A stretch of 43,535 nt of DNA from Hyphomicrobiales bacterium (GTDB taxonomy: Bacteria; Pseudomonadota; Alphaproteobacteria; Rhizobiales; Aestuariivirgaceae). This document shows, piece after piece, positions 6,780-11,265 of this stretch. The DNA is taken from NCBI GenBank assembly GCA_026982665.1, contig JALSGQ010000126.1, forward strand, positions 1 through 43,535, given 5' to 3'. A model generated the notes under the pieces. It was not told where the DNA came from. It saw nothing but the letters and a program-made list of their open reading frames with translations, and ran no database searches. A program made the position numbers and the translations under genes. Numbering within the stretch: position 1 is the stretch's first letter; each line of letters opens with the position of its first letter.

Positions 6780-6903
6780 GATGGCGGGATGCCCACCTCC
6801 ATGCGCCCGGGCAGCGCCAACCATCTTTCGCCTCACAGGAGGCTTTCGTCATACTCGGCAAAATCAGTATCTTGCACCAATAACTTCACATACCGGGGGA
6901 AAC

Positions 6904-7923
6904 ATGAAAGCATTCATCTGCAGCTGTGCCGGCACGCAATTGTCGGAAGCGGAGCGCACCTTCTTTCGTGAGGCGCGCCCCTTCGGCTTCATCCTGTTCG
7001 CCCGCAATATCGACAATCCGCAGCAGGTGCGCGACCTCGTCGAAGACTTCCGTACCTGCGTGGATCGACCCGACGCACCGGTGTTCATCGACCAGGAAGG
7101 CGGCCGCGTGCAGCGCCTGCGCCCGCCGCATTGGCGCGCCTATCCTCCGGCGGCGCGTTACGGCACCTTGTTCGACCATGATCCGCTGGCAGCACTGCGC
7201 GCCTGCCGCAACGTGCATCGTTTGCTGGCCCGCGAGCTGAAGCAGCTGGGCATCAATGCCGACTGCCTGCCGGTGCTGGACGTGCCGGTGCCGGGCAGCC
7301 ACGAGATCATCGGAGATCGCGCCTTTCATGATTCGCCACAGACAGCGGCGCTGCTGGCATCCACCGCCATCGCCGGCCTGCGGGCCGAGGGCGTGGCCCC
7401 GGTCATCAAGCACATTCCCGGCCACGGCCGCGCCGGGGCCGACAGCCACGAGGAACTGCCAGTGGTCGATGCCTCGCTGAATGAACTGCGCGCGCATGAT
7501 TTCCTGCCCTTCGCCGCGCTGGCCGATGCGCCAATGGCAATGACCGCGCATGTCATCTACAGCGCCATCGATGCACGCCGGCCAGCCACGACATCAGCCA
7601 TCGTCATCCAGGACATCATCCGTGGCGAACTGGGCTTTGACGGGCTGCTGATGAGCGACGACCTGAACATGCAGGCATTGAGCGGCCCGCTGGGCCGGCG
7701 CGCCGAGATGGCGCTTGCGGCTGGCTGCGATGTTGTCCTGCATTGCTCCGGCAGGCTGGAGGAAATGCGCGAGGTTGCCGCCGCCTGTCCGGAGCTGGGC
7801 GGCGATGCCCTGCCCCGCGCCAATGAGGCCATGCGCGCGGCCAATGCGCAGCCGCAGCCCTTCCCGGACATGAAGCAGGCGGAGGAATGGCTGGCGCGCC
7901 TGCTGGTGGATGCCTCCTCCTGA
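6904..7923 (+). CDS. nagZ: Beta-N-acetylhexosaminidase (NagZ), glycoside hydrolase family 3
   Basis: A 339-residue cytoplasmic enzyme that removes GlcNAc from GlcNAc-anhydroMur-peptides during peptidoglycan recycling. Diagnostic features are DQEGGRVQR (63-71), KHIPGHG (169-175) followed by D180-S-H182 of the catalytic His/Asp loop, and nucleophile D252 in LLMSDDLNMQ. No signal peptide is seen, as expected. The start follows a GGGGGA ribosome site 4 nt upstream; an upstream in-frame start would add 45 residues without similarity. The stop codon lies in a small GATGCC-TCTCT-GGCATC hairpin (7922-7938). In other alphaproteobacteria scpA-scpB-tat genes usually follow; here they do not. Confidence 0.96.
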   Translation: MKAFICSCAGTQLSEAERTFFREARPFGFILFARNIDNPQQVRDLVEDFRTCVDRPDAPVFIDQEGGRVQRLRPPHWRAYPPAARYGTLFDHDPLAALRACRNVHRLLARELKQLGINADCLPVLDVPVPGSHEIIGDRAFHDSPQTAALLASTAIAGLRAEGVAPVIKHIPGHGRAGADSHEELPVVDASLNELRAHDFLPFAALADAPMAMTAHVIYSAIDARRPATTSAIVIQDIIRGELGFDGLLMSDDLNMQALSGPLGRRAEMALAAGCDVVLHCSGRLEEMREVAAACPELGGDALPRANEAMRAANAQPQPFPDMKQAEEWLARLLVDASS

Positions 7924-8109
7924 TGCCTCTCTGGCATCCCGGCAGGTCCATGCTGCATGCCCCCGGCGAGTGGCCGGAAGAGATGCCTTCCTGCCAGCAG
8001 CCAGCCGACTTGAGCCACCGCCTCCGGCAGCAACGCGCGCATTGCCACAGAAAGTGGCCCGCGCCTGCATGACGCTGGCGCGGGCCGGCCTGTGCTGGCG
8101 TACCGGGGG

Positions 8110-8179
8110 CATATGCACCAGACAGGCATTCACATGTGAGCACATTCTGCGCGCAGATGCGAGTCATCATGTGCATATG
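8110..8179. repeat. Nested inverted repeats (possible operator or cruciform)
   Basis: CATATGCAC (8110-8118) is the exact reverse complement of GTGCATATG (8171-8179). Between them lie two perfect 10-bp palindromes, TCACATGTGA (8130-8139) and CTGCGCGCAG (8147-8156). The arrangement looks like an operator cluster or a multi-branched RNA or DNA structure. No binding protein can be named from the sequence. Confidence 0.4.
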
Positions 8180-8340: not shown

Positions 8341-8355
8341 TTAGCCCGCCGTTAA
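8341..8355. promoter_or_regulatory. Near-consensus CtrA-type site
   Basis: TTAG-CCCGCCG-TTAA matches the CtrA full site TTAA-N7-TTAA except for one base in the first half. It lies 262 bp before the O-antigen ligase-like gene and just upstream of the hairpin run, so it could control either. One mismatch in a short motif makes it uncertain. Confidence 0.3.
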
Positions 8356-8360
8356 GCCTG

Positions 8361-8536
8361 AACGGATAGCTTCATCCGCGTTGGAAGTGAGTTGCGTAAC
8401 CTCTCGCAGCAAGCCGGGCCGCCGGGGGCATGTTCCAATACGGCCCGGCTCCGGGAGGCCCGTGTAAACCAGAAAGAACGCCGATGGGGCATGACCTTCA
8501 TCCAGGGTTTCCCTCATCGGCGTTCTGGATGGTTTT
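8361..8536 (+). ncRNA. Candidate structured RNA or long structured leader
   Basis: Three hairpins follow one another. The first is AACGGAT/ATCCG-c-GTT (8361-8382). The second has perfect 10-bp arms AGCCGGGCCG (8412-8421) and CGGCCCGGCT (8441-8450) with a 19-nt loop. The third has perfect 12-bp arms AGAACGCCGATG (8475-8486) and CATCGGCGTTCT (8515-8526), extendable by GGG/CCC across a bulged T, with TTTTT at 8532-8536. The last element resembles an intrinsic terminator with a 5-nt spacer. The whole could be a small RNA of roughly 170 nt or an attenuating leader for the downstream gene. No known RNA family was recognised. Confidence 0.4.
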
Positions 8537-8617
8537 TCCGGCACCCTTCCCATGTGCAGAAGCCCGGCAAGCGCGGCAGACTGCACGGGAGCAGCGCATC
8601 GAACACGGGCGGATGAC

Positions 8618-10003
8618 ATGCCTTCCGGCACTCCCAGCAGACCCGGCATGCCGTTCAACCAGATGACGGCGCATGCGCACCGGCCTGCGCATTCGGCCCT
8701 GTTGCGCTGGCCCACGGTGGCGGACATGCAGGCCGCGCTGCTGTGGATCTTCATCGCCTCCGGCTGGTTCGTGGTGGTGGAGCCGGCTCCTTACGAATTC
8801 CTGTTCGTGCTCACCTTCGCCCTGTTCCTGCCCGGCGGGCTGGTGGCCAGCGTCTTCACCGCGCCGATGATCATCTTTCTCATCCTCTACAACATCGGCG
8901 GATTCTTGAGCTCCGCACAACTGGCATCGCTGCCGCCACACGTTGCCGAAAAGGCCAACCGTTTCGTCTTCATCTCCAGCTACATGGCGGCGACCTCCCT
9001 GTTCTTCGCCATGGCCGCCACGGCGCGGCCGGAGCGCATCGCCGGCATCGTGCGCCATGCCTGGATCGTTGCCGGCGTCATTGCCGCCACGCTGGGCATG
9101 ATCGGCTATTTCGACATCGCCGGCATGGGGGCGAAATGGGCTCCCATCCAGCGCGCGCAAGGCACGTTCAAGGACCCCAACGTGCTCTCCACCTTCCTCG
9201 TGGCCCCGGCGATATTCCTGGCGCAGGACTTCATGCTGGGCAATGCCCGCCACCCGTGGCTGCGCGGCGCAGCCCTGCTCGTCATCCTTGGTGGCATCTT
9301 CCTGGCCTTCTCGCGCGGGGCATGGGCGGTTACCGTCGGCAGCATGCTGCTGCTGGCGCTGTTCACCTTCATCACCACCACGCGCACCTCCTTGCGCCGG
9401 CGCATCGTGATGATGGCGGCGCTGCTGACGGTGCTGGGTGCGGTGCTGCTGGTAGCGCTGCTGTCGGTGCCGGCAGTGCGGGAAATGTTTGCCGAGCGAT
9501 TCACCCTGTTCAAGGACTACGATGCCGGAGAAACCGGGCGCTTTGCCCGCCAGCTGCGCTCCATCCCCATGCTGCTGGAGCGGCCGCTGGGGTTTGGTCC
9601 CTTCGGGTTCAGCGAAATCTTCGGCGAGGACCCGCACAACGTCTATATCAACGCCTTCTCTGCCTACGGCTGGCTGGGCGGCATCTCCTACCTGCTGCTG
9701 ACCTTCGCCACCATTGCCATCGGCCTGCGTGCCATGCTGATTCCCACGCCGTGGCGGCGGCATGTCATTGCCTTCTTCGCCCCGCTGCTGATGCTCATCC
9801 TGCAGGGCATGCAGATCGATACCGACCACTGGCGGCACTTCTACCTGTTGCTTGGCATGGTGTGGGGGCTGTATGCAGCCAGTGAACTGTGGCTGCAACG
9901 CCAGCGCCGCCAGCACCACCAGCATCTGCAGCGCGGCGCAGCACCGCACATGACAGGCACGAGGGCATCCCATGAGCAACGACAACCGCCACCACAAGGC
10001 TGA
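8618..10003 (+). CDS. O-antigen ligase/polymerase-like (Wzy/WaaL) membrane protein
   Basis: A 461-residue polytopic inner-membrane protein with about ten or more hydrophobic helices. Motifs typical of the Wzy_C/O-antigen ligase superfamily are GTFKDPNVL (near residue 182), FSRGAW (near 232), and a periplasmic loop with ERPLGFGPFG and DPHNVYINAF (near 325-345), whose His is the kind of residue implicated in catalysis in this family. Such proteins polymerise or ligate surface polysaccharide on the periplasmic side. The start at 8618 has a GGGCGG-like ribosome site; starts at 8552 or 8648 are possible. No glycosyltransferase genes are adjacent, so the substrate is unknown. The gene ends 32 nt inside moeA. 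Confidence 0.8.
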   Translation: MPSGTPSRPGMPFNQMTAHAHRPAHSALLRWPTVADMQAALLWIFIASGWFVVVEPAPYEFLFVLTFALFLPGGLVASVFTAPMIIFLILYNIGGFLSSAQLASLPPHVAEKANRFVFISSYMAATSLFFAMAATARPERIAGIVRHAWIVAGVIAATLGMIGYFDIAGMGAKWAPIQRAQGTFKDPNVLSTFLVAPAIFLAQDFMLGNARHPWLRGAALLVILGGIFLAFSRGAWAVTVGSMLLLALFTFITTTRTSLRRRIVMMAALLTVLGAVLLVALLSVPAVREMFAERFTLFKDYDAGETGRFARQLRSIPMLLERPLGFGPFGFSEIFGEDPHNVYINAFSAYGWLGGISYLLLTFATIAIGLRAMLIPTPWRRHVIAFFAPLLMLILQGMQIDTDHWRHFYLLLGMVWGLYAASELWLQRQRRQHHQHLQRGAAPHMTGTRASHEQRQPPPQG

Positions 10004-11250: not shown

Positions 11251-11265
11251 TTAAGCCGCCATTAA
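11251..11265. promoter_or_regulatory. Consensus CtrA-type binding site upstream of ftsB
   Basis: TTAA-GCCGCCA-TTAA is an exact match to the TTAA-N7-TTAA consensus of the alphaproteobacterial cell-cycle regulator CtrA, followed by CC. It begins 1 nt after the moeA stop codon and 98 nt before the ftsB start. TTAA is rare in this GC-rich DNA, which raises its weight. Binding is inferred, not shown. Confidence 0.5.

Follow-up and report, generated by a model that had tools for sequence, protein, structure and literature searches.

The described RNAs that come closest to the element reported here are CcnA, EcpR1 and GspR, and we compare them as far as the available text of the publications describes them. 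CcnA is a CtrA-controlled non-coding RNA of Caulobacter crescentus that measures 182 nt, is located at the origin of replication and acts by means of a CCCC loop (PMC8959179). The family described here, in contrast, stands mostly at the NAD kinase gene (nadK) and carries other boxes, and targets are not among its known features. EcpR1 (SmelC291) of Sinorhizobium meliloti resembles the family in its occurrence in several families of the order, its two stem-loop domains, its own promoter and its kept neighbourhood. However, it lies downstream of divK-pleD, is transcribed from a sigma70 promoter and uses a loop for pairing, and a link to nadK was not seen in the available text (PMC4414408). GspR (SmelC775), also from S. 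meliloti, is a rhizobial trans-acting small RNA of similar length (143 nt) that is tied to CtrA, but it folds into three stem-loops, has no known promoter signature and is flanked by SMc03844/SMc03845. Furthermore, GspR represses ctrA and is not shown in that text to be activated by CtrA (PMC5928217). The published neighbourhoods of all three RNAs differ from those of the present family.

A literature search of titles, abstract beginnings and text passages, with figures, supplements and most subscription papers beyond its reach, found, among the papers listed, neither a published description of the RNA nor a small RNA linked to NAD kinase in Rhizobiales. The main text of a survey of trans-acting small RNAs in Rhizobiales contained no word beginning with NAD or kinase. 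Rfam, which an earlier sequence-only reading of this DNA had proposed to consult, gave no matches at the gathering threshold in the window, that is, in the whole analysed stretch of 43,535 nt, a contig of a 2.1-Mb genome. Permissive scans, which covered the 176-nt stretch that had been singled out and three relatives, gave no match on the RNA that reached gathering.

Here we report that two hairpins upstream of an O-antigen ligase gene very probably belong to a real small RNA gene that several related bacteria share. Judged by conservation and structure, a free-standing small RNA with a regulatory role is probably encoded at positions 8382-8537 (+); it would measure about 155 nt and bring a CtrA-type promoter and an intrinsic terminator of its own.

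Results

Structure of the element in the window

The features of the locus are given below by position and strand; R1 and R3 are covariance models, A8 is an alignment, and members are the homologues of the RNA.

6886-7923 (start provisional), +: upstream neighbour, nagZ-like glycoside hydrolase family 3 gene (PF00933, E 1.7e-54)
8048-8128, -: second structured RNA of two hairpins, the second a terminator, beside all five ligase-locus copies
8341-8355, +: CtrA-like promoter box TTAG-N7-TTAA, TTAGCCCGCCGTTAA, present as TTAG-N6/7-T[TC]AA in 27 of 27 members, 23-31 nt ahead of the 5' box
8365-8370, +: -10-like hexamer GATAGC, assigned by comparison with other members, in which a -10-like stretch is visible by eye
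8382-8537, +: predicted small RNA of the nadK-associated family (R1 and R3 reciprocally match the loci; 27-member alignment)
8387-8401, +: 5' box GTGAGTTGCGTAACC (A8 columns 6-17, 27 of 27 members agreeing at 9 of 12 positions)
8400-8458, +: helix P1, 8400-8406 with 8452-8458 (7 of 7 pairs changed on both sides, 94.4% of cells paired)
8462-8466, +: second box GTGTA, consensus GAGTA (A8 columns 111-115)
8475-8526, +: helix P2, the terminator stem, with 12 perfect pairs 8475-8486/8515-8526 (14 of 15 pairs changed on both sides, 93.4% of cells paired)
8533-8537, +: T-run closing the RNA (TTTTT; members have T-rich 3' ends)
8618-10003, +: O-antigen ligase (Wzy_C) gene (PF04932, E 9.6e-12; start one of 8552, 8618, 8648 and 8663)

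The sequence-only reading had described three consecutive hairpins as a possible small RNA or attenuator. Its perfect stems of 10 bp (8412-8421/8441-8450) and 12 bp, the TTTTT after the last stem and the near-CtrA motif at 8341 are all present, and in the window genome the 10-bp stem enlarges P1 from within. The first, weak hairpin (approximately 8361-8380) is outside the RNA, and only two of the three belong to it: it falls where promoter and transcription start are presumed to lie, and the corresponding stretch forms different, weak folds in the four clade relatives (-1.4 to -5.0 kcal/mol). The RNA proper probably begins near 8380. The T-run is poor in two of the relatives (G006 and G003; genomes are given by our own numbers).

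Perfect stems of at least 10 bp with loops of up to 40 nt occurred 10 times in the window versus 3 to 8 times in each of six Markov-1 shuffles of its 43.5 kb, while a perfect 12-bp stem occurred once in the real window and in none of the shuffles. Compared with dinucleotide shuffles, the 176-nt stretch folded better than 200 of 200 for each strand (z -4.7 on the plus and -5.3 on the minus strand), so that folding energy alone leaves the strand undecided. A simple terminator scan restricted to loops of 3-8 nt omits the 12-bp hairpin, whose loop measures 28 nt, and lists a 5-bp minus-strand site at 8492-8478. A DNA similarity search with the whole stretch gave partial matches only, the best in G006 (1-92, 74%) and G007.

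Homologues downstream of NAD kinase

Homologues of the O-antigen ligase were found in 10 of 11 genomes of the genus. In five of these ten (G000, G003, G006, G007 and G008) the RNA stands upstream of the ligase gene, and these copies share a block in which TTAG-N7-TTAA and the string GTGAGTTGCGTA are followed by a helix, a GAGTA-like sequence and the terminator helix. A covariance model of these five ligase-locus copies only (R1) was run on 69 genomes of the family. It scored 98.6-111 bits at its own five loci, with opposite-strand matches of 25-29 bits there, and further matches reached 31 bits in G009 and 22-24 bits in four cases. In G009, G023 and G018 the matches open with the 5' box of the ligase-locus copies, and NAD kinase is the gene directly upstream. 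Those in G023 and G018 (23-24 bits) score below the opposite-strand matches of R1 and were accepted as members because of their 5' box and neighbourhood; both copies were later used as seeds of R3. Two matches of about 22 bits (G075 and G019) are without the 5' box and were rejected.

A nadK match was obtained in 36 of 40 relatives. Of the 30 loci used, 29, all but that of G019, could be followed downstream of the gene. The RNA was found downstream of nadK at 11 loci (G005, G009, G010, G012, G016, G017, G018, G021, G022, G023 and G027). Nothing similar followed nadK in G000, G003, G007 and G008 of the window clade, in G002, or at the other loci read. R1 recovers seven of the 11 copies, with E-values between 3e-6 and 0.011 in 38 kb, and gives E 0.17 for an eighth; these E-values, like all those from covariance models here, rest on a short calibration. 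A second model (R3) was made from these seven nadK-locus copies and comprises P1 and P2 only, its alignment being laid out with the structure of R1. It matches the window at 8382-8535 with 40.1 bits (E 8e-9, 82 kb), as well as the copies of the four clade relatives and the four other nadK-locus copies on which it was run, and its best match in the window's own genome is the window copy (31.3 bits, E 4.3e-5). Thus, the homology holds in both directions: R1 recovers nadK loci and R3 recovers ligase loci. In G009 the next large ORF after the RNA, which we take by eye to be comEC-like, is antisense and as listed overlaps the RNA; there is therefore no evident co-directional gene after the RNA in this genome.

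In the R3 search of the 40 relatives, 21 had a match at E 0.05, and 14 were accepted as members. Weak matches were read and rejected in G035 (one of seven), G001 (one of two), G004 (two of three) and G014 (the sole one). Three of the four weak stretches from G004, G001 and G014 look like hairpin terminators after other sequence, and the G014 stretch has neither 5' box nor GAGUA box. The matches in G024, G034 and G038 were left outside this sorting, and three positional members (G012, G016 and G021) were missed by the search. Among 297 genomes of the order, 12 had R3 matches at E 0.001, of which three were accepted (G000, G122 and G158) in a search insensitive enough to miss G027. The other nine were rejected by eye as hairpin terminators after other sequence that lack the 5' box, the one in G035 sharing GCGTAACC only.

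A strict pattern of box plus motif found only the window's genome among 385 genomes of the class, most of them from other orders. A looser pattern matched 29 of the 69 family genomes, in 21 cases at the nadK (16) or ligase (5) locus. The scan of viral contigs for box plus motif gave one AT-rich match, which we took as chance. Genus g4, with 37 genomes, gave no pattern match at nadK; the region downstream of nadK was read there in G013 and G020 only. Within the window's genus, the searches gave no copy of the RNA in G001, G002 and G004; of these three, they covered the nadK locus in G002, since no nadK match was obtained for G001 and G004.

In total, 27 members were found, in eight genera and two families of the window's order, 22 of them beside nadK and five beside the ligase gene. 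Eight of the members (G077-G084) were found by a pattern that demands the 5' box and TTAA, and 19 are independent of the pattern. The usual position directly downstream of nadK (22 of 27) is not that of the window copy, which lies upstream of the ligase gene.

Conserved boxes and covariation

The three variable positions of the 12-nt 5' box are the same in 21, 25 and 26 of the 27 members, and nine of the 12 positions are identical also in the 19 members not found by pattern. In the window the box matches GURAGUUGCGUA exactly, at 8387-8398. The letters of the GAGTA box are found as G in 24 of 26, A in 20 of 26, G in 27 of 27, T in 22 of 23 and A in 19 of 23 sequences.

The sequence-only reading had named compensatory changes in homologues as a check, and they were found. 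In the 27-row alignment, which was fitted to the covariance model and hence favours pairing, 93.7% of the cells are paired versus 67.1% after shuffling (0 of 500 as high). Base changes on both sides affect 21 of the 22 pairs (shuffles 15.6, with one of 500 reaching 21), and the covariation score is 0.62 versus 0.20 (0 of 500), slid partners giving at most 0.20. When the members found by pattern are left out, the remaining 19 still show 92.5% paired cells and 21 of 22 pairs changed on both sides. RNAalifold on the five ligase-locus copies, whose MAFFT alignment was not fitted in this way, found both partners changed in 14 of 31 pairs.

As the aligned members show, the predicted genes follow one plan: TTAG-N6/7-TYAA, a -10-like site, GURAGUUGCGUA, P1, GAGUA, and P2 with a U-run. 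Members from genus g7 are without P1, and therefore the 5' box and the GAGUA box stand side by side there. In the ensemble, about half of the 5' box is free of pairing (0.42 to 0.70, 15 copies). A conserved leader peptide (GTG GAT GTG AGT TGC GTA) was considered and rejected by eye, the downstream frame being unconserved. The covariation, the homologues beside NAD kinase and the lack of an evident co-directional gene in G009 argue for an independent gene, which agrees with the free small RNA that had been suggested from the sequence.

Promoter box and transcription start

The TTAG-N6/7-T[TC]AA box is also found in 19 of 19 members that were not obtained with the pattern demanding TTAA (G010 has TCAA). 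Its distance to the 5' box is 31 nt in the window copy, and the chance expectation for TTAR-N7-TTAA is 0.02 per window. Between the two boxes the members have a -10-like stretch of the CTA/GTA/ATA type, as judged by eye, and by analogy transcription would start near 8377-8382. Since a -35 hexamer at normal spacing was not seen in the members, it is natural to assume an activator over the -35 region. The half-site of CtrA is TTAA, and the promoter box, which starts with TTAG, is one base off; compared with the consensus of a CtrA-type box over the -35 region, the window sequence fits with one mismatch. According to the available text of a published study, CtrA-type boxes are placed over the -35 region of CtrA-activated promoters (PMC11264516). 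Because the box of the RNA sits where a -35 element would be expected, we infer CtrA or a CtrA-like activator. Elsewhere in the window, a perfect TTAA-N7-TTAA lies at 11251-11265 upstream of a short plus-strand ORF (121 aa), which by eye we take to be FtsB/DivIC-like.

The ligase locus

In all five genomes of the genus that have the ligase and no RNA upstream of it (L013-L017), a TTAACCAT box lies 41-160 nt before the start of the ligase match, which suggests that the ligase itself may be CtrA-controlled there. None was found before the ligase in the five genomes that carry the RNA at this place. Since the RNA stands where relatives have the TTAACCAT box, it is possibly also a leaky leader in the window clade.

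The alternative that the element is a cis-acting leader or attenuator of the ligase gene, with transcription from the CtrA-like box either stopping at P2 or reading through, is possible, though we hold it to be unlikely. In five of five clade genomes the RNA lies between the ligase gene and the only CtrA-like box found, the TTAACCAT box of the other five genomes is missing, and in G006 the ligase ATG follows about 24 nt after an RNA whose T-run is degraded. However, 22 of the 27 members stand downstream of nadK, in G009 before no evident co-directional gene, and a competing anti-terminator was not seen in the folds made. The leader of the ligase gene that the sequence-only reading offered as its second option may be an additional role in the window clade; the nadK homologues favour an independent gene.

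The second, divergent RNA has a long and nearly invariant 5' stretch, and two of its 29 pairs, both in the terminator, changed on both sides. It scored at least 95 bits in five of the 69 family genomes, which are the very five with the RNA at the ligase locus, and the other matches listed reached 28.1 bits or less. An exact-pattern scan of genome contigs for this RNA returned four records, which match the four clade relatives, and Rfam gave no match for 8048-8128 (-). A 7-nt complement (GCGUACC/GGUACGC) connects the two RNAs in four genomes and is broken in the window. Across the five genomes, the 5' box paired with the divergent RNA no better than in shuffles (fraction at least as strong 0.14-0.73), and the same applied to the ligase leader (0.08-0.90). 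As both local pairing tests matched shuffles, we claim no cis target.

Probable relocation from nadK

The NadK proteins of four window-clade genomes form one clade (100/99) within a genus whose members G005, G009 and G010 have kept the RNA at nadK; G006, in which no nadK match was found, was left out. Given this nesting, one relocation suffices. The five ligases from the loci with the RNA group at 93/99 in a midpoint-rooted tree. A more elaborate scenario, which we consider rather doubtful, is that the RNA gene moved from nadK and its CtrA box replaced that of the ligase, giving a cell-cycle-controlled trans-acting RNA that is at the same time a leaky leader, with the divergent RNA newly arisen beside it as partner or antagonist.

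Discussion

In the mechanism that we propose for the free-standing small RNA, CtrA or a CtrA-like activator would switch the RNA on from the promoter box, and the RNA would act in trans. The 5' box and GAGUA would serve as pairing region or as site of an RNA-binding protein; judged by its conservation, the 5' box is the likeliest pairing region, with a protein site as the alternative. In the window clade, some read-through past P2 would also serve the ligase gene, which has no TTAACCAT box there.

Alternatively, the 5' box might be a DNA operator of some regulator and the transcript be without function. In genus g4, GTRAGTTGCGTA abuts the ATG of a peptidoglycan-binding-like gene (G046, G067 and G068) and of an M15/DUF882-like gene (G020), and away from the nadK and ligase loci the looser pattern gave 10 matches in eight of the 69 family genomes, about twice the five matches (four genomes) of the reversed control. 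An operator could explain part of the conservation of the 5' box. As a full account we consider it improbable, since the promoter box lies at a variable distance of 23 to 31 nt while P1, GAGUA and P2 stay conserved and covary. It is very improbable that P1 and P2 are just ordinary terminators in tandem and that the double hairpins of the family are unrelated to one another: the nine rejected order matches and three of the four weak stretches do look like hairpin terminators, but the members have in common the promoter box, the 12-nt 5' box and the GAGUA box, which are absent from these false matches.

If expressed as predicted, the free-standing RNA would represent a small-RNA family that Rfam lacks; the family covaries strongly, has NAD kinase as usual neighbour and carries a promoter that points to CtrA, the alphaproteobacterial cell-cycle regulator. 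The prediction is testable in any culturable member. The window clade provides a natural experiment, in which a relocated RNA gene now stands at the promoter position of a protein gene.

As a minor observation, GTGAGTTGCGT abuts the ATG at four loci of genus g4 (L117, L122, L123 and L119). The genes that follow are presumably, by eye, three orthologues of a peptidoglycan-binding-like gene and an M15/DUF882-like gene, and the arrangement may reflect chance or a second use of the motif.
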